Source: Deltaproteobacteria bacterium
GTDB lineage: Bacteria > Desulfobacterota > Desulfobacteria > C00003060
Assembly: GCA_030667105.1 (NCBI GenBank)
Contig: DAOUWN010000105.1
Coordinates: forward strand, 1-7,136
DNA: 7,136 nucleotides
Direction: 5' to 3'
Numbering within the stretch: the first letter of the stretch is position 1; the number at the start of each line of letters is the position of its first letter. Of the stretch, positions 1 through 7,136 are shown piece after piece. A program made the translations under genes and the position numbers. The notes beneath the pieces are model-generated. The model did no database searches, had not been told where the DNA came from, and worked only from the letters and a program-made list of their open reading frames with translations.

Positions 1-120
1 CTTGGACTCGCCATCAGTCTTCGCATTGTTGAGTCGTTCGGCGGCGCCATCAGCGTGGAAAGCGTTGAGGGGAAGGGAAGCACCTTTAAGATCAGACTGC
101 CTTTGGAGCGCAGAGTATGA
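1..120 (+). CDS. Sensor histidine kinase, C-terminal tail (5' end outside window)
   Basis: The window opens inside a reading frame whose last 39 codons end at TGA 118-120. They read LGLAISLRIVESFGG at the start and GKGSTFKIRLP near the end. This is the G2 box and final beta strands of a GHKL/HATPase_c ATP-binding domain, as in two-component histidine kinases of the NtrB/AtoS type. Only this end is visible, so the sensor input, phosphoacceptor histidine and possible receiver domain cannot be judged. The stop overlaps the alr start by 4 bp (ATGA, 117-120), which suggests co-transcription and coupled translation with alr. The tail resembles that of the kinase at 3329-5080 only as the family requires; I see no sign that one is a copy of the other. 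Confidence 0.88.
   Translation, partial: LGLAISLRIVESFGGAISVESVEGKGSTFKIRLPLERRV
105..108 (+). promoter_or_regulatory. Ribosome binding site for alr
   Basis: GGAG lies 8 nt before the ATG at 117, inside the end of the upstream kinase gene. It supports ATG 117 as the true alr start, upstream of the internal TAG, rather than the later ATG at 243. Confidence 0.55.
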
Positions 121-1238
121 TAGAAAACGAGGTAATCGTCGACCTGGGTGCCATCAGGCACAATCTCTTTGAGATCAAGCGATTGGCAGGCCCCGGGAGC
201 CGCGTCATCGCTGTCATCAAGTCAGATGCCTAGGGGCACGGCATGATCCCGGTAGCCCAAACCCTTGAGTCATCAGGCGTTGATTCCTTTGGGGTATTTG
301 AACTGGAAGAGGCCTTGGACCTGAGAAAGGCCCATTGCAACATCCCGATTTTACTTATGAAGGGCATCACTGCGGATGAAGTTTCAGCCGCTGTTGAAAA
401 AAGGCTCACGGTGGCTCTTTTTCAACAGGACATAGCGGAAAAACTCTCCGGAGCGGCCCTTAAACAAGGCACGGTCACTCCGGTCCATGTGAAGATAGAC
501 ACTGGCATGGGGCGCCTGGGCGTGCCATGGGAAGATGCGTCAGATTTCCTGCAAGGCCTTTTGTCCTTAAACGGGCTTTTGCTCGAAGGGATATTTTCGC
601 ACTGTGCTGTCGCCGATAAGCCTGATCACCCCTTCACGGATGAGCAGATTGGCAGATTCTTACAGGTAGTCAAAAAAAGTAAACAACTTGGGGTGTGCTC
701 CGAGGCGGTTCATGTTGCAAACAGCGGCGCTCTTTTGGCAAGAAAGGGCATTGATCTCGGCATGGTGCGGCCCGGCATACTCCTCTACGGATCGCCGCCC
801 GCTGAAGGCTTGGCTGGGGCAGATTCCTTCAAGCCGGCCATGACCTTCAAATCCAGGGTAACTCAGGTAAAAAAAGTCCCCGCCGACACCCCCATCAGTT
901 ACGGTTGTACCTACAGAACCCGCTCAACTTCTACCATTGCCACTGTCCCTGTAGGCTACGATGACGGATACAGCCGAATGCTCTCAAACAAAGGAGAAGT
1001 GCTCATCCATGGGAAAAGAGTGCCGATCGTGGGTCGCGTTTGCATGAACCTGACCATGGTGGATGTGTCTCTACTGGACGGTGTCTCCGTGGGCGATGAG
1101 GTGGTTCTTTTGGGAGCCCAGGGAAAAGAGCGGATAACTGCCGAAGAGCTGGCAAGAAGAATCGGAACCATTAGCTACGAAGTCTACTGCATGATCGGAA
1201 AGAACAACCGTCGTGTCTACAGGGACCAAAGACAATGA
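117..1238 (+). CDS. alr: Alanine racemase, interrupted by an in-frame TAG at codon 39
   Basis: PLP enzyme interconverting L- and D-alanine in the cytoplasm for peptidoglycan. From ATG 117 the frame is 373 residues, normal for the family. Visible landmarks (numbered from ATG 117) are the PLP-lysine segment AVIKSDA with Lys35; KIDTGMGRLG at 126-135; VRPGILLYG with Arg218, expected at the pyridine nitrogen; VGYDDGY with Tyr281, the expected second catalytic base; and CMNLTMVDV with Cys309. Codon 39, the Tyr of the A-Y-G-H-G motif, is TAG (231-233), so normal translation would give a 38-residue stub. The frame is open again from ATG 243 for 331 residues, but that product lacks Lys35 and could not bind PLP normally. 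Everything after the stop is well conserved, so this is a very recent nonsense mutation, a sequence error, suppression/recoding, or a stop-restart. The family assignment is secure; activity is doubtful. The end overlaps the next gene by 4 bp. Confidence 0.9.
231..233 (+). other. In-frame TAG in the alr PLP-lysine motif
   Basis: The codon between GCC (Ala38) and GGG (Gly40) is TAG. The family has Tyr here (TAT/TAC), so one base change explains it. The residue corresponds to active-site Tyr43 of the Geobacillus enzyme, four residues after the PLP lysine. TAG also ends two other genes in this window (stops at 3218-3220 and, on the minus strand, 5211-5209), so it works as an ordinary stop codon in this genome. 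Confidence 0.9.
232..236 (+). promoter_or_regulatory. Possible internal ribosome binding site for restart at ATG 243
   Basis: AGGGG begins within the TAG codon and sits 6 nt before ATG 243. This spacing would suit ribosomes reinitiating after the stop. The motif may be accidental, since the bases also encode the conserved Gly of A-Y-G-H-G. Confidence 0.3.
1221..1225 (+). promoter_or_regulatory. Ribosome binding site for the PilZ-OYE-Usp gene
   Basis: AGGGA lies 9 nt before ATG 1235, inside the last codons of alr. It supports the start that overlaps the alr stop (ATGA, 1235-1238). Confidence 0.5.
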
Positions 1239-3220
1239 CTGCCACGGATGTTCAAGAGGCAAAGCGAGAACATGTAAGAAAGGATTTCTTTGGGCAGGTG
1301 GAAGGCCTTTTCCAGGGCTCCACTTTCTACGCCACCATACAGAATCTCGGCGTGGGCGGTATGTGTTTTGAGGTCGACTACCTTTTCAGGACCGGCATGG
1401 ACTTGCGCCTTGTGTTTAAAGTCTCCGAATCAGATCCCAAAGTACTGGAAGTGGCAGCGGAAGTGGTGTGGGTTCAACCCGTGCACATGCTCTTCAATCG
1501 AGTGGGAGTGAGGTTCCAGAAACTTGACCGGGCAACTGAACGCATGATCAACAGGTTTGTTTCCGGCCTGATAAGGCCCTCAGGCCTTGCAGGGGCCGCC
1601 AGATATCCCCTGCTGTTCAGCCCCTTTAGGATTTCCAACGTGACACTCAAGAGTCGCCTCACCATGGCGCCCATGTTCTGGGGTTATGCCAATGAAGACG
1701 GGACAGTGAGCCAGACGCTGATCGATCATTACCGGCAGATCGCCCTTGGTGAGGTGGCTATGATTGTTGTGGCCAATGCCGTTGTTGACCAGTCCGGTAT
1801 CATGGCTTCCAGGGTCCTCAGAATCGATCATGACTGTTTTGTCCCTGGACTGGCCAAGCTGGCAGAGGCCATAAAGTCTTCTGGGGCTGTTGCTTGTCTG
1901 CAAATCAACCATGCCGGGCGATGGGCAAGTATCGAAAAACCACTGACGCCTTCTCCCATCACCGTGGATATGTTGCCCGAATTGGGCGCCTTGGATGGCA
2001 TGCGAAAGGTGATGTCGAAACGGCATCAGATGCGGCTGGTAAACAAGTTCTTATCGGCAGTGATGCGGTGTCGAAAGAGCATGAAGTTGAAGGAGATTGC
2101 GTCGATCAGGACCTCCTACGGCCAGGCGGCTTTGAGGGCGCGAGAGGCAGGCTTCGATATGATGGAACTCCATGGGGCGACTGGATATCTTCTGGCCCAG
2201 TTTCTTTCTCCAAGATCAAACAAACGAACAGACCACTACGGCGGCAGCCTGGAAAACAGGATGAGGTTTCCGTTGGAAGTGGTTGAAACAGTGATGGAGT
2301 TTGTCGGAAAGGACTTCCCCGTAGGATACCGATTCTTGGCCGATGAATGGCTTGCCGACGGCTTCGGGATCAAAGAAGCTGGAATCTTCGCTCAGCAGCT
2401 GGAAGCATTGAACATTGCCTATTTGTCTGCAACAGCAGGGACCTACGAATCGTTCTTTCTACCAGAAATCATGAATCAATCGAGAAAGGAGGGTTACTTG
2501 GCCCCCCTGGCCAAGAGGCTGAAAGAACTCGTCCCTAGGACGCCGGTCATCGCTGCGGGAAGGATCGTGTCACCCGAACTGGCTGAGCACATGCTCGGGG
2601 ATGACGAATGTGATCTCATCGGACTTGCTCGAGCCTTGTTTAGCGACCCCCTTTGGCCCAATAAGGTATACGAGGGAAGAGAAAGTGACATTGTTTCTTG
2701 CAAGTGCTGCAACACCTGTCTCATCCGTGTCATCAATAATGAACCGGTCGTGTGTGTCAGGTGGGATAAGCTGAAAAGAATGGACCTGGACGTGCAGTTG
2801 AAGCAAAAGAAAGACAAATGGGAGAAGATTCTAATTGCCGTGGATGACACAAGAAGTTCTCTGGAAGCCGTTGAGTATGCAGGTCATATGATCGGTCAGG
2901 GCAAAAGAGTAACTCTGTTTAGTATCGTAGAGGAAGGACCGGCGGCCCAAACGGCAAGAAAGGAAAGGGAAAATTTGCTGGTTCAGGCCAAGGGGCTCTT
3001 GCAAAGTACTGGTATGAACGAGCCCGATATTCAAATAAAGGTGGCCATGAAGCAAAAGAGGATAGAAGAGGACATACTCGACGAAATCGAAAAGGGAGAG
3101 TATGGCTCGATCATCCTTGGAAGAAGAGGTGTATCAAGAGCCAAACAGCTCTTATTTGGCAGTATCTCCAATTACATCGTACATCATGCCAAAAACTGCG
3201 GAGTATGGGTTATTGACTAG
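1235..3220 (+). CDS. Three-domain fusion: PilZ - Old Yellow Enzyme-type flavin oxidoreductase - universal stress protein
   Basis: One uninterrupted 661-codon frame. Residues ~8-110 are a PilZ domain, a c-di-GMP receptor fold: R11-x3-R15, then N37-L-G-V-G-G42, where the usual N-x-S-x-x-G serine is Gly39. Residues ~123-510 are an OYE/2,4-dienoyl-CoA reductase-type FMN barrel: LKSRLTMAPM at 138-147, HAGR at 226-229, HGATGYLLAQFLSP at 313-326, and SNKRTDHYGGSLENR at 328-342. Cysteines 489, 491, 492, 495 and 507 include a C-x2-C-x2-C-x11-C pattern fit for a 4Fe-4S cluster. Residues ~528-661 are a UspA domain: KILIAVDD at 531-538 and the ATP-binding glycine motif G629-x2-G632-x9-G642-S643. The FAD/NAD(P) domain that usually follows in dienoyl-CoA reductases is absent; the Usp domain occupies its place. 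No signal peptide or TM segment, so cytoplasmic. It probably reduces an activated C=C bond; substrate and electron donor are unknown. Regulation by c-di-GMP and a nucleotide is inference. Coupled to alr by ATGA. Confidence 0.88.
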   Translation: MTATDVQEAKREHVRKDFFGQVEGLFQGSTFYATIQNLGVGGMCFEVDYLFRTGMDLRLVFKVSESDPKVLEVAAEVVWVQPVHMLFNRVGVRFQKLDRATERMINRFVSGLIRPSGLAGAARYPLLFSPFRISNVTLKSRLTMAPMFWGYANEDGTVSQTLIDHYRQIALGEVAMIVVANAVVDQSGIMASRVLRIDHDCFVPGLAKLAEAIKSSGAVACLQINHAGRWASIEKPLTPSPITVDMLPELGALDGMRKVMSKRHQMRLVNKFLSAVMRCRKSMKLKEIASIRTSYGQAALRAREAGFDMMELHGATGYLLAQFLSPRSNKRTDHYGGSLENRMRFPLEVVETVMEFVGKDFPVGYRFLADEWLADGFGIKEAGIFAQQLEALNIAYLSATAGTYESFFLPEIMNQSRKEGYLAPLAKRLKELVPRTPVIAAGRIVSPELAEHMLGDDECDLIGLARALFSDPLWPNKVYEGRESDIVSCKCCNTCLIRVINNEPVVCVRWDKLKRMDLDVQLKQKKDKWEKILIAVDDTRSSLEAVEYAGHMIGQGKRVTLFSIVEEGPAAQTARKERENLLVQAKGLLQSTGMNEPDIQIKVAMKQKRIEEDILDEIEKGEYGSIILGRRGVSRAKQLLFGSISNYIVHHAKNCGVWVID

Positions 3221-3328
3221 CCCGTTACTTGTCAAATTCGTGTTCTTTCTGGCAGTTGAACGACCATAAATGCGCACTTGCATAAATCTGTCCTATTTGA
3301 TCTTCAGCAAAGGGAAACAGGGCCGTAG
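3221..3328. other. Convergent intergenic gap, no clear terminator
   Basis: This 108-bp stretch lies between the stop of the fusion gene and the stop of the minus-strand kinase. I find no GC-rich hairpin followed by a T run on either strand. Weak structures only: ATGC-N6-GCAT at 3270-3283, and a 7-bp direct repeat CATAAAT at 3265-3271 and 3281-3287. No ORF of note. Confidence 0.5.
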
Positions 3329-5080
3329 TCAGAGAATCGTAGGGAGGCGAAGGACAAAAGTTGTACCTTTTTTCAACTCGCTGTGGCATTCAATGGTGCC
3401 GCGGTGAGCCTCCACAATCGTCTTGACTATTGACAACCCGAGGCCCGTACCTTTTTTGCCTTTGGTAGTAAAGAAGGGGTCGAACATCTGTTCCAAGATC
3501 TCTGGTGCCACGCCGAGCCCTGTATCTTCTATCACAACCACAAGGCTCTGCTCTTCGATCCTTCCTTCAATGCTTATCCTTCCGGGACCGCCTACGGCTT
3601 CTAAAGCGTTTTTGACCAGATTGTTCAAGGCCTGGTACATGAGACGGGTATCTATGTTGACAGGTGGCAAGTTGGAGGGCCAGTTGAGGTCAAGCTGGAT
3701 TCCACTTTGTTTTGCATTGGCCTGATGGACAAACAAGACCTCACGAATAGTCTTGTCTATTGACACCCTTTCCAGGCGTAGGTCCGGTTTTTTGGCAAAT
3801 TGTAAGAAATTATGAATGAACTGCCTGACCCGCTTTGAGTCTTTTTCCAATATATCCAGGGCGTTTTCTCCTTTTTGGCTGAGTCCTTCACCCTTTATAA
3901 TGGCCAGAGTCAACCCAACGTTGTTGAGGAGGTTTCCCACCTCATGGGTGACCTTGCTGGAGGTCGTGCCCAGGATGGCCAAATTCTTTGCATGTGCCAG
4001 TTCCCTGGCTGTCTCAACTTCACGCCTTATGAATGTCTTGAGCGAATCTGTCATCTTATTAAAAGCCAGGGCCAGATCGCCGATTTCGTCATGGGACTCA
4101 ACGGACGCCCTCTGATCAAGGTCTCCCTGACCGATTCTTTCAACCTGGCGGTGAAGGGTGTGAATAGGGGTAAGGAAACGCCTTACCCGATGCCACCCGA
4201 GGAGGATGGCCAAAAGGCAGATCAAACAAGTTATAAGGATACCCCAACGAATATTCTGGTATAAGTATGCATAGATCTCCGGATAGGCCTGGCTTAAGAC
4301 AATCACCCAATCAAGATCCGGAATACGGTAGCCCAGACAGTGGAGTTTGGTTTCGTCCTTTTCTTCAACCCAGACCACTGGCGTACTTGAAGTGCGGAGT
4401 TTTTTCAGCACGTCCGATGCTTCTTCCGGACGCGCCCTGACCACGCGGTCCATTTCCATATGGCCGATGAACTGTCCTGACAAATCCATGATAGCCACTT
4501 GACCTGTGTCGCCTACTTTGACCCCCTCCAACACATCCCACACTGACTTCAGGTTAAATTCACCCCAAAGGACTTCCCTGACCTCGCCCAGGTGTAGTAC
4601 CGGGGTGGCTACATGGATGTAAGGGATATTTTCTTTTGTCCACATGACACCGGAAATGGCCCTTTTTCCCGTCAGTGCCTTTCTAAAGGTCTCGCTTTGC
4701 CTGAAGTTTACGTCTCCTTTTTCCCGGCCAACCGATATGACCTCCTTTCCTTGTGTGGAAATCAAAGACATAGACATGAATTCCGTTGCTGTATGACTAA
4801 AAGCTGCAATGGCCATCTCCTTTTGCCATCGATTCAGTTTAGTGGCAGCTATGACCCAGGCCAGGCCCTCTAAACCTTTTTGTGCATTTCTCATGAAAAG
4901 GCGGATCTCGCCTGCAGAGCTTTTGATGATATTTTCGTAATCCGTGTTTATCGTTTTCTGGAAGTGTGTGTACGTCGTCCAAGAAAGGATGATGCCGGTC
5001 ATGGTTATGGATAGGACAAGGAAAGGCAGGACAAAGAGGAGAACCTTATAGATGAGTTTTGTCTTTTTTGTGCTGTTCAT
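3329..5080 (-). CDS. Membrane sensor histidine kinase (Cache-HAMP-HisKA-HATPase)
   Basis: A 583-residue complete kinase that senses an extracytoplasmic signal and autophosphorylates a histidine. TM1 spans ~9-33; residues ~38-275 form a periplasmic double-Cache-like sensor, with GDTGQVAIMDLSGQFIGH at 190-207 typical of its second lobe; TM2 spans ~277-297. HAMP covers ~298-351. The HisKA H-box is THEVGNLLNN with phosphoacceptor His379. The N box is NNLVKNALEA (486-495), the G1 box is EDTGLGV (518-524), the F box is FDPFFTTK (533-540) and the G2 box is GTGLGLS (544-550). No PAS or receiver domain. ATG 5080 was chosen because TM1 follows directly; the frame stays open upstream to 5653 but would overlap the permease gene and has no family resemblance there. 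The ribosome site is poor (CCAGG 14 nt upstream, AGAGGA 19 nt upstream). No response regulator is in view, so the partner is unknown. It converges on the fusion gene. Confidence 0.92.
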   Translation of the reverse strand: MNSTKKTKLIYKVLLFVLPFLVLSITMTGIILSWTTYTHFQKTINTDYENIIKSSAGEIRLFMRNAQKGLEGLAWVIAATKLNRWQKEMAIAAFSHTATEFMSMSLISTQGKEVISVGREKGDVNFRQSETFRKALTGKRAISGVMWTKENIPYIHVATPVLHLGEVREVLWGEFNLKSVWDVLEGVKVGDTGQVAIMDLSGQFIGHMEMDRVVRARPEEASDVLKKLRTSSTPVVWVEEKDETKLHCLGYRIPDLDWVIVLSQAYPEIYAYLYQNIRWGILITCLICLLAILLGWHRVRRFLTPIHTLHRQVERIGQGDLDQRASVESHDEIGDLALAFNKMTDSLKTFIRREVETARELAHAKNLAILGTTSSKVTHEVGNLLNNVGLTLAIIKGEGLSQKGENALDILEKDSKRVRQFIHNFLQFAKKPDLRLERVSIDKTIREVLFVHQANAKQSGIQLDLNWPSNLPPVNIDTRLMYQALNNLVKNALEAVGGPGRISIEGRIEEQSLVVVIEDTGLGVAPEILEQMFDPFFTTKGKKGTGLGLSIVKTIVEAHRGTIECHSELKKGTTFVLRLPTIL

Positions 5081-5118
5081 TCTGACATGGGCAACCTGGT
5101 CCTCTGGGCTCGGATATC

Positions 5119-5147
5119 TATATAGAAGATTGGCCAGGCGTAGTAAA
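5119..5147 (-). promoter_or_regulatory. Candidate sigma70-like promoter for the histidine kinase
   Basis: On the minus strand, TTTACT (5147-5142) and TATATA (5124-5119) are separated by exactly 17 nt. Each matches 4 of 6 consensus positions. Transcription would start near 5112, giving a leader of about 30 nt before ATG 5080. It lies in the 128-bp gap after the permease gene and could let the kinase be expressed separately. Found by eye, so tentative. Confidence 0.3.
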
Positions 5148-5208
5148 GGATATTTGAAGAAACAAAACGGGGACGCAGTAAACAGGAAGCTTTGCGACGC
5201 TTTCTTGT

Positions 5209-6417
5209 CTAGCCTATGGACATCTTCTTGAAAGGCGTAGCGCCTCTTGTCAGAAGGGATGCCCACAGCAAGACCAAAGACGCAGCGAGCAGAAGGGGTT
5301 GGGGACCCCACAGGCTTAAGACAAGGGCGCTGCTTAATATGGCTCCCAAATAGCAGGCTCCCCTGTATGCTGTTAACATCGATATGGTTTTCCCCATGTC
5401 GACCTTGGGGCTGGTTTGCTGGATAAGGCTTTCCAAAAAGATATGTGCCAGCGTCAGTCCGCAGCCAAATAGAATCATCAGCAAGGCAATCTGGATGTAA
5501 GTTGTGAGGTGACCGAGAATGGCCATGCCCCCTGCGAGGATCAAAAATGTAAGAGAAAGAATCGATTTGGGCCTGAAGGTCGATGACCACCTGGGCAACA
5601 GGAAGGTGGCCAGACAGGAACCAGCCTGAAACCCCGAAAGGATCAACCCCCAATCAGCAATATTGCTGCCGAAGTTTGACTTGAACAAGATGGGTAGGCC
5701 AATATTCAATACACCTCCTCCCAGAAGCACAAACCCGAAGATAAGAAAATAGGCCCTGAGGTTATGATTCTTTCTAAAAGGCTCCCTGTACTTAAAGAGC
5801 AAAGAGTCCTTGCCCCCGCCTCCCTTTGGACTGCGGCTGGACCCATCAGGGACATCAGCGGATTTCGGCAGCCCGCAGACGGCGCAGACCGAGAGCATAA
5901 GAAGGGCGCCGGCCAGCCCCAGAGCGACTCCCTGACCAGCTTTCAAAACCACCCAGCTGATAAGACAGGGCCCGCAGATGCTGCCAGCGAGCGACACCCT
6001 TTCGTTCAGGGCATTAAAGGCAATGATCTGTTTTTTGGGTATCAACAGGGGGGTCACGGAGAGACGTCCGATGTTGAAAAAGAGTGAACCCACCGTAAAG
6101 AAAAGGTAGACAGGCAAGATAATCCAGGGAGATAATTGAAGGACAAGCAGCCCCACCAGAGCGCATTTGCCTACGTTTACCATGGTGAGCCATTTTCTGA
6201 TCCCCACCCGATCCATCCAAAGACCTGCCAGGGGGCTCAGGAGAATAGAAGGGGTTTGCTGAACCAGGCAAAGCACTACGAGATTCGATAAGGCATTCTC
6301 TCCCTTAAAGATCAGCACGTCAAGCAGAGTTAGGCCCACGAACTGATTTGCCAGATCGGCCAGGAGATCGGCCGAGATGATCAGATACTTCGGGGCAATC
6401 CGGTCAGTGGGTCTCAC
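5209..6417 (-). CDS. Major facilitator superfamily transporter, 12 TM, exporter-like
   Basis: A 402-residue integral membrane protein with twelve hydrophobic segments in two sets of six: roughly 11-35, 43-66, 78-95, 98-118, 141-160, 162-182, then 222-245, 252-274, 284-303, 305-329, 350-369 and 373-390. They are split by a hydrophilic, Gly/Lys/Ser-rich cytoplasmic loop (~183-218). The loop between TM2 and TM3 carries the MFS motif A, G65-LWM-D69-R70-VG-I-R74-K75. The overall style is that of the MFS_3 / EntS-like efflux group, so export of a small molecule or peptide is more likely than uptake; the substrate cannot be read from sequence. The start is GTG 6417, overlapping the upstream SPASM gene's stop as GTGA, with only a weak ribosome site (GGGG about 17 nt upstream), which fits translational coupling. 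It probably exports, or confers resistance to, something made with the SPASM protein. Confidence 0.87.
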   Translation of the reverse strand: MRPTDRIAPKYLIISADLLADLANQFVGLTLLDVLIFKGENALSNLVVLCLVQQTPSILLSPLAGLWMDRVGIRKWLTMVNVGKCALVGLLVLQLSPWIILPVYLFFTVGSLFFNIGRLSVTPLLIPKKQIIAFNALNERVSLAGSICGPCLISWVVLKAGQGVALGLAGALLMLSVCAVCGLPKSADVPDGSSRSPKGGGGKDSLLFKYREPFRKNHNLRAYFLIFGFVLLGGGVLNIGLPILFKSNFGSNIADWGLILSGFQAGSCLATFLLPRWSSTFRPKSILSLTFLILAGGMAILGHLTTYIQIALLMILFGCGLTLAHIFLESLIQQTSPKVDMGKTISMLTAYRGACYLGAILSSALVLSLWGPQPLLLAASLVLLWASLLTRGATPFKKMSIG

Positions 6418-7136
6418 GCTGCTATTTTCAAGGCCCCATCCTCTTGACGTTCCTGAAAAGAGACGGCTGAAGCCATTTCCCTGATGTATTCTTCCAGAAA
6501 GAGGCGCTGTATCTCTTCATGGCAATCGATGCCGTTGAAACCGTTCCCCTTTATCAGGGCCTGCAAGCGGCAGCCGCCTATGCAGATGGGCAAGATGGGG
6601 CATTTGTTCAGGCATTTGTCGGGCAGCTTTCGTTTCAGAAGTTCTGATTCTGCCACAAAGTCGACCCCTGTTGTGACATGTCCATAGGCCATTTCCCCGC
6701 CTTGCAGCGATGGGCAGGGGATGATAGAACCGTCTGCATCAAAGACAAATCTTGCCCGAAAATCGGCCATGCAGGCATTGGAAGGGGCCTCATCATCCTG
6801 GGGGAAGCCTCGTTTTTGTGCCTCTTCTGTGAGATAGAGCAATATCCTGGGATCGCCTGTGCCGGATTGAAAGGGGCTTTTTCCCCTTCTGGGCAGGATC
6901 GGCGTAAAGGTGATGCTGTCGATTGCAATGCCACGTTCAACAAAATCGTCCAGCATCTCCGGAAAACCGAGGAAATCAAAGGCGCCACTGTCATACTGGC
7001 ATTCAATGGTGATGGGAATCATGCCTGAGACAGCCTCAAGGTTTTGCAAAATCACTTCATAGGTCTTGCCGTTGGTCTTTGAGGGCCTCAAGGCATCGTG
7101 AACAGCAGCAGGCCCTGCCAGGCTGACCCGAAGACC
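6414..7136 (-). CDS. Radical SAM/SPASM protein, C-terminal part (5' end outside window)
   Basis: The frame is open to the right edge, so the gene starts beyond 7136; 240 residues are visible. The first, LRVSLAGPAAVHDALRP, match the radical SAM barrel strand usually written SLDGP..HD.LR. The CxxxCxxC SAM-cluster motif must lie upstream, outside the window. The C-terminal half is a SPASM domain binding auxiliary 4Fe-4S clusters: C122-x13-G-x4-C141, then C175-x3-C179-x5-C185-x3-C189 and a last C205 (numbered from the first visible residue). The canonical spacing is C-x2-C-x5-C-x3-C, so the first gap is one residue longer. SPASM enzymes include RiPP peptide maturases, anaerobic sulfatase maturases and PQQ/mycofactocin-type enzymes. 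Direct coupling to an MFS exporter favours a peptide or small-molecule modification role, but this is inference and no precursor peptide is in view. TTG 7091 could pass for a start but would cut the barrel. Confidence 0.85.
   Translation of the reverse strand, partial: GLRVSLAGPAAVHDALRPSKTNGKTYEVILQNLEAVSGMIPITIECQYDSGAFDFLGFPEMLDDFVERGIAIDSITFTPILPRRGKSPFQSGTGDPRILLYLTEEAQKRGFPQDDEAPSNACMADFRARFVFDADGSIIPCPSLQGGEMAYGHVTTGVDFVAESELLKRKLPDKCLNKCPILPICIGGCRLQALIKGNGFNGIDCHEEIQRLFLEEYIREMASAVSFQERQEDGALKIAA

Follow-up and report, generated by a model that had tools for sequence, protein, structure and literature searches.

A PilZ domain and a Usp domain flank a predicted FMN/4Fe-4S oxidoreductase core in a single deltaproteobacterial protein

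The contig DAOUWN010000105.1 of the Deltaproteobacteria assembly GCA_030667105.1, analysed here over its first 7,136 nucleotides (the window), carries at positions 1235-3220 of the forward strand a single uninterrupted frame with an ATG start and a TAG stop (P0001). The encoded protein of 661 residues combines a PilZ domain, an Old Yellow Enzyme (OYE)-type flavin mononucleotide (FMN) barrel with a predicted 4Fe-4S site behind it, and a Usp domain. We lean, if only slightly, towards viewing it as a sensor-regulated FMN/[4Fe-4S] oxidoreductase that would depend on an external carrier and would have acquired a newer cyclic di-GMP (c-di-GMP) input besides an older nucleotide input. The modules are known, but their combination is new as far as the literature search reached and, if this reading is true, the fusion of PilZ to a flavin/4Fe-4S oxidoreductase would tie c-di-GMP straight to redox metabolism.

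The order PilZ, Oxidored_FMN, Usp in one frame had been proposed by a sequence-only reading of the window, and a Pfam domain search finds all three domains above their curated cut-offs. PilZ (PF07238) spans residues 10-110 (1262..1564, +; E 1.2e-13) and scores 51.7 bits against a cut-off of 22.5, which answers the reservation that the N-terminus might fail to match this family. Oxidored_FMN (PF00724) spans residues 127-484 (1613..2686, +; E 8.1e-72), where an AlphaFold2 (AF2) model built from a 71-row alignment (A1) and compared by VIA-align also has the TIM-barrel fold. Usp (PF00582) spans residues 529-659 (2819..3211, +; E 1.2e-15) with 58.7 bits against a cut-off of 24. NCBIfam gave only sub-cut-off matches to the whole protein, the best being the models for mycofactocin OYE 2, BaiCD and bilirubin reductase.

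A protein search scored 7998 candidates, 3141 of which matched at E <=0.001; the best 120 of the 3141 were used. Leaving out three short sequences (P0039, P0042, P0063) and one 100% identical to the query (P0002), the alignment holds 117 rows: 49 PilZ-OYE-Usp (the query included, and P0030 counted by alignment, its precomputed Pfam list being without Usp), 13 PilZ-OYE and 55 OYE-Usp. The same three-domain order is found in at least 48 homologues among the matches listed and in five intact genes from separate assemblies with different neighbours, so that the one-gene fusion plainly recurs; the suspicion of an assembly artefact, voiced with the sequence-only reading, was examined on this basis. 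Two further loci are not counted as intact three-domain copies: L006, whose PilZ region lies under a run of N (5899-5998), and L007, an interrupted gene (2581-3658) in which residues 1-130 and about 398-661 are matched and the middle is missing, with no N run. A search for separately encoded Usp domains in relatives gave four matches (P0122-P0125). The first three start at internal codons, either within the 4Fe-4S linker or shortly ahead of Usp, two of them on contigs of about 1 kb, and P0124 minus its first residue is contained in the three-domain protein of L002; they seem to be pieces of three-domain genes. P0125, at 40%, is a Usp that stands alone.

The sequence-only reading had also described a complete OYE-type barrel and a cysteine cluster, of a class that it did not name. 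The barrel stands, but not as that of a plain OYE: together with the segment behind it, it forms the FMN + 4Fe-4S half of the class that includes 2-naphthoyl-CoA reductase (NCR), dienoyl-CoA reductase (DCR) and trimethylamine dehydrogenase (TMADH), without the flavin adenine dinucleotide (FAD) module. The cluster is present as C489-x2-C492-x2-C495-x11-C507 (2699..2755, +), which aligns with the sites of TMADH, histamine dehydrogenase and FadH (C335, C338, C342 and C354 in the last) and is on this alignment a predicted 4Fe-4S site of the TMADH/DCR type. All four cysteines are present in 117/117 rows, the query included; C491 is not conserved (29/49 three-domain, 13/13 Usp-less and 0/55 PilZ-less rows). 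The 4Fe-4S linker behind the barrel, a trait of the NCR/DCR/TMADH class, is thus found both in the aligned cysteines and in a structural match that extends to residue 521. Pfam finds in the query no match to the FAD (and NAD(P)-like) alpha/beta domains in which proteins of the class end. Near structural likeness to these enzymes stops at about residue 521, and Usp sits where their FAD domain starts, an arrangement that had escaped the sequence-only reading. The 661-residue protein shares the module of this class and is not filed as one of its members.

Within the barrel, Q223, Y318, R366 and R466 are invariant (117/117 rows) and align with FadH Q101, Y167, R215 and R312; we take the glutamine and the two arginines to be FMN-contacting. 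Y318 closes the active-site stretch H313-G-A-T-G-Y318 (2171..2188, +) and is presumably the catalytic tyrosine, since Y167 in the full-length numbering of FadH is the catalytic Tyr166 of DCR. H313 is invariant in all rows as well, and E405 is found in 116/117. In comparison with Escherichia coli FadH there is an insert at about residues 246-280 (1970..2074, +; placed by eye), which is helical in the model, with low confidence for residues 248-262.

Both N-terminal motifs singled out by the sequence-only reading are in the query and conserved across the 62 PilZ-bearing rows. RxxxR and [DN]xSxxG are the c-di-GMP motifs that define PilZ receptors, and we assume the same role for R11-x3-R15 (1265..1279, +) and N37-L-G-V-G-G42 (1343..1360, +), the latter with a glycine at the serine position. 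R11 and R15 are present in all 59 rows that have letters there. G42 is found in 60/60 and N (40) or D (20) at position 37 in 60/60; at position 39, 52 of 60 rows have S, 7 have G, the query among them, and 1 has N. In rows with letters, seven PilZ columns out of 102 never vary (R11, R15, G42, G54, W79, G91 and F94), and the two arginines and G42 are kept even in members at 26-36% identity to the query PilZ piece. The full conservation of R11, R15 and G42 supports a functional PilZ receptor, though four further PilZ columns are equally invariant. When the PilZ part alone was used as query, 27 proteins were found among candidates of similar length and 27/27 have the OYE domain. All seven genomes holding the gene or a remnant (7/7) have GGDEF domains, and each has between 2 and 33 PilZ matches at E 0.001; the 33 are those of the genome of L006 (G006), which is of about 2.4 Mb.

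The full G-x2-G-x9-G-S motif that had been claimed for the Usp domain was likewise recovered (G629-x2-G632-x9-G642-S643; residues 629-643, 3119..3163, +). Gx2Gx9G[ST] is the motif of the ATP-binding Usp subtype. It is complete in 54/55 OYE-Usp rows vs 34/49 three-domain rows, the usual loss in the latter being that of the second glycine, and at equal core identity the Usp identity is lower in three-domain rows (e.g. 0.55 vs 0.59 at core 0.6-0.7, from pairs that are not independent). The adenine-nucleotide input looks like the older of the two, and some of the PilZ clade shows it eroded or has lost it; the query keeps both motifs. It follows that the two inputs of the earlier interpretation, in which c-di-GMP and adenine-nucleotide state could gate a redox reaction, may hold for some members only; its domain assignment survives and its simple OYE gives way to a 4Fe-4S enzyme of the NCR/DCR/TMADH type.

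Thirteen relatives have no Usp match (P0044, P0048 and P0050-P0060); loss of the domain, a stop or a frameshift may each lie behind this. W529, at the Usp junction, is invariant in three-domain rows and, judged by length and tail, 9/13 (P0048, P0050-P0052 and P0055-P0059) seemingly end at the residue before it; P0053 and P0054 end three residues earlier and P0060 ends otherwise. P0044, from a contig of 2129 bases, includes the first 17 residues of Usp and is perhaps truncated. Together with the less often complete Usp motif of the three-domain rows, these Usp-less relatives (one perhaps cut) point to a possible sensor swap.

The order in which the two sensor domains came was sought in a tree of the core that excludes the PilZ and Usp columns. 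It has 71 hand-picked rows (37/49 three-domain, 13/13 Usp-less and 14/55 OYE-Usp rows, L032, three Usp-Usp and three FAD/NAD outgroup proteins) and was made by a quick method, with long outgroup branches. On this tree PilZ requires one change (branch support 90, not starred) and Usp three: one separates the family from the FAD/NAD outgroup, one falls on P0044, and one on a clade in which P0048 is joined by 11 further PilZ-OYE rows. The branches of OYE-Usp, of OYE-Usp-Usp and of the PilZ group spring from an unresolved fork and, because all three have Usp, Usp is probably older than PilZ. The ancestral form was probably OYE-4Fe4S-Usp; PilZ was probably gained once, and Usp then decayed or went missing (in one 12-row clade) in some descendants, whereby control may have moved toward c-di-GMP. 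P0061-P0066 form a deep branch among the protein matches. In L033-L035 the core is followed by about two Usp lengths, which we read as OYE-Usp-Usp; Pfam on L035 finds one Usp stretch.

The named carriers (L001-L007) are metagenome-assembled genomes (MAGs) of Desulfobacterales, Desulfobacteria and 'Deltaproteobacteria'. In a class draw of 291 genomes, 38 match at E 1e-80: four with the full three-domain gene, G006 with its PilZ region under the N run, G007 with the interrupted gene, 12 with OYE-Usp and 20 with more distant or shorter matches. A phylum draw gave 2/395 genomes at E 1e-120. The PilZ genes of the genomes examined fall in one genome family of 22 genomes, which holds G001-G007. Six of the 22 have a PilZ-clade gene (G006 included), one has the interrupted gene and two have OYE-Usp (G206, G673), completeness of the MAGs not being given, so that absences are soft. 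One member, G003, which holds L003, is the MAG C00003060. Two papers use C00003060 as the order name for the Seep-SRB1c/1g lineage (PMC10553843, PMC11237511), and the MAG presumably belongs to the order bearing its name. The lineage with the fusion is related to uncultured sulfate reducers of methane seeps; c-di-GMP, PilZ and Old Yellow do not occur in the main text of PMC10553843.

In the reading that we slightly favour, FMN would carry out two-electron or hydride exchange with an activated alkene (C=C), an acyl-CoA or a related substrate, and the 4Fe-4S cluster, with no built-in FAD feeding it, would swap single electrons with an external carrier, for which ferredoxin, a protein like electron-transfer flavoprotein (ETF) or a separate flavoprotein are candidates. 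c-di-GMP on PilZ and an adenine nucleotide on Usp would alter the access of carrier or substrate. A bolder proposal, which we offer tentatively, is that c-di-GMP at PilZ would directly govern how electrons reach the OYE-type active site by way of an exposed 4Fe-4S cluster. The FAD input module would have been replaced by Usp, PilZ then added and Usp discarded in some lines, and surface or consortium signalling would thus switch a redox step without transcription in Seep-SRB1c-related sulfate reducers.

A possible partner gene was found beside the PilZ-less relatives. In 7/12 OYE-Usp loci (L038-L044, e.g. L040 9663-10955), a gene of about 430 codons, cut by the contig in L038, shares 4 nt with the OYE-Usp gene, and its product opens with a GxGxxG dinucleotide fingerprint. 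At E 1e-20 this gene is present in 8/291 genomes, all eight within the 12 with OYE-Usp, although in G059 it lies about 14 kb away. No NCBIfam model matches the product, Pfam gives nothing besides a weak FAD-NAD(P)-binding match, and its profile against the PDB gave one chain at E 0.39, which is not convincing. This pattern would suit a flavoprotein that is provided in trans for a core without an FAD domain. In L051, a neighbour (10037-12046, -) has an FAD-type fingerprint.

Several observations weigh against a sensor-regulated oxidoreductase of this kind. The flavoprotein nature of the partner rests on one motif and the weak Pfam match (E 0.038 at best, in 2/7 members), its AF2 model is poor (predicted local distance difference test, 34.2), and at E 1e-20 it is found in none of the six PilZ-clade genomes of the class draw (G001, G003-G007) and is absent from 4/12 OYE-Usp genomes. 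Three-domain genes have no conserved neighbour pointing to a pathway (window, L001-L008). The incomplete Usp motif of 15/49 three-domain rows is contrary to a universal ATP input. The PilZ piece had no match among PDB sequences up to E 10, and part of its conservation must be structural because G54, W79, G91 and F94 are as invariant as the motif residues. In the barrel, the second active-site histidine of YqjM-type OYEs is Thr316 in the query. Fold searches with the whole model are mainly a test of the barrel, since barrel matches make up the 50 best rows of each.

Among other explanations, the one that survives best, and still an unlikely one, is that PilZ serves placement or assembly: c-di-GMP would dock the enzyme to a membrane, pilus or EPS complex, or shift its oligomeric state, and turnover would be unregulated. 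Many characterized PilZ proteins dock to a partner, and the 2 to 33 PilZ matches per genome would be in keeping with this. However, docking PilZ domains are usually stand-alone or joined to non-enzymatic parts, and no conserved neighbour offers itself as a docking target. Less probable again is a redox-signalling switch with little turnover, in which sensing falls to the flavin/4Fe-4S part and the two ends act as outputs, the redox state or a barrel substrate setting the binding of c-di-GMP, nucleotide or partner. The barrel is indeed flanked on both sides by signalling domains, and there are neither pathway neighbours nor a built-in FAD/NAD(P)H donor domain, but the invariance of H313, Y318 and R366, with E405 in all rows but one, is what is expected of an enzyme, and ends that can each be missing in relatives are better suited to inputs than to outputs. 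It is improbable that the Usp domain, instead of sensing ATP, is ETF-like or binds c-di-AMP. In favour of it, ETF subunits and Usp belong to one fold superfamily, and DAC domains occur in 6/7 of the genomes with the gene or a remnant. The Usp domain of KdpD, according to a review, binds c-di-AMP (PMC7288161). Against it, the motif is that of ATP-binding Usp domains, complete in almost all OYE-Usp rows, and one of the seven genomes shows no DAC. That separate genes were joined through an error of assembly or annotation, for which Usp-only and Usp-less versions in databases might speak, is ruled out by the recurrence of the order in homologues and in five assemblies with different neighbours.

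The surroundings of the gene were compared for the window and L001-L008, which have almost no neighbouring genes in common, only a pair in L004/L006 (87%) and the histidine kinase of the window with a piece in L006 (30%) being shared, and L002 having almost no upstream flank; the fusion is thus kept while its surroundings change. In the window, the upstream neighbour is an alanine racemase gene (117..1238, +) that overlaps the three-domain gene by 4 nt (1235-1238). It has an in-frame TAG at 231-233, within the pyridoxal phosphate-lysine motif K-S-D-A-*-G-H-G, at a position where we take tyrosine to be usual. A nonsense mutation, a sequence error or read-through are possible; pyrrolysine is not supported, PylS being above cut-off in 0/7 relatives' genomes. 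Positions 1-120, read from the translation, encode the C-terminus of a further protein, which is similar to a histidine kinase ATPase domain. Downstream, a dCache-HAMP-histidine kinase is encoded at 3329-5653 (-), and because the frame as called begins with roughly 230 domain-free residues, its true start may lie further in. A major facilitator superfamily (MFS) transporter gene (5209-6417, -) stands beside one for the C-terminal part of a radical SAM/SPASM protein (6414-7136, -), nearest to the geopeptide maturase model but below cut-off; the two could possibly be a peptide-modification locus cut by the window edge.

How the three-domain protein relates to known systems is best seen from its core outwards. 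NCR (6qkg/6qkr) is the best structural match to the query model (367 residues at 1.9 A, reaching chain residue 399), and in it, too, a 4Fe-4S linker comes after the OYE barrel. NCR comes from anaerobic naphthalene degradation and has an FAD domain and a second alpha/beta domain beyond residue 400 (PMC6502838), whereas the query has Usp behind the core and PilZ ahead of it. The 2,4-dienoyl-CoA reductase FadH (1ps9) and the trimethylamine and histamine dehydrogenases likewise share the barrel and 4Fe-4S module, with aligned cysteines, but the query has no FAD/NAD(P)H domain such as FadH and TMADH possess. It also differs from FadH in having F148 at the position of H27, which is presumably that of the FMN-linked cysteine of TMADH, and H313/T316 vs M162/E165. 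YqjM/XenA-type OYEs end at the barrel and are not known to have a 4Fe-4S site, unlike the query, which goes on past it and has Thr316 at their second active-site histidine.

On the signalling side, the query has the RxxxR and [DN]x[SG]xxG motifs of PilZ c-di-GMP receptors, but its PilZ is fused to a flavin/4Fe-4S enzyme. A 2020 review counts 221 PilZ architectures in Pfam (PMC7288161), and c-di-GMP receptors are treated in the reviews consulted mainly in connection with motility, biofilm or polysaccharide production and virulence (PMC10519070, PMC7288161). The literature search, outside which most subscription journals lay, found no fusion of PilZ with a flavin/4Fe-4S enzyme, an Old Yellow Enzyme or other oxidoreductase, or a universal stress protein, and none of UspA with a dienoyl-CoA reductase. 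The glycogen-degrading enzyme GlgX of Streptomyces is listed as directly stimulated by c-di-GMP (PMC10519070). It is comparable in that c-di-GMP acts on a metabolic enzyme itself, as proposed for the query, and different in that it is no redox enzyme and that binding is listed at the C-domain rather than at a PilZ domain. Also related are the OYE-4Fe4S-Usp proteins of Desulfobacteria (P0067-P0121; 12/291 class genomes), which have the same core and Usp at 43-49% identity but no PilZ, and in 7/12 loci the adjacent GxGxxG partner gene. With them, OYE-Usp, PilZ-OYE-Usp and PilZ-OYE make up a natural series for sensor change on one enzyme core.

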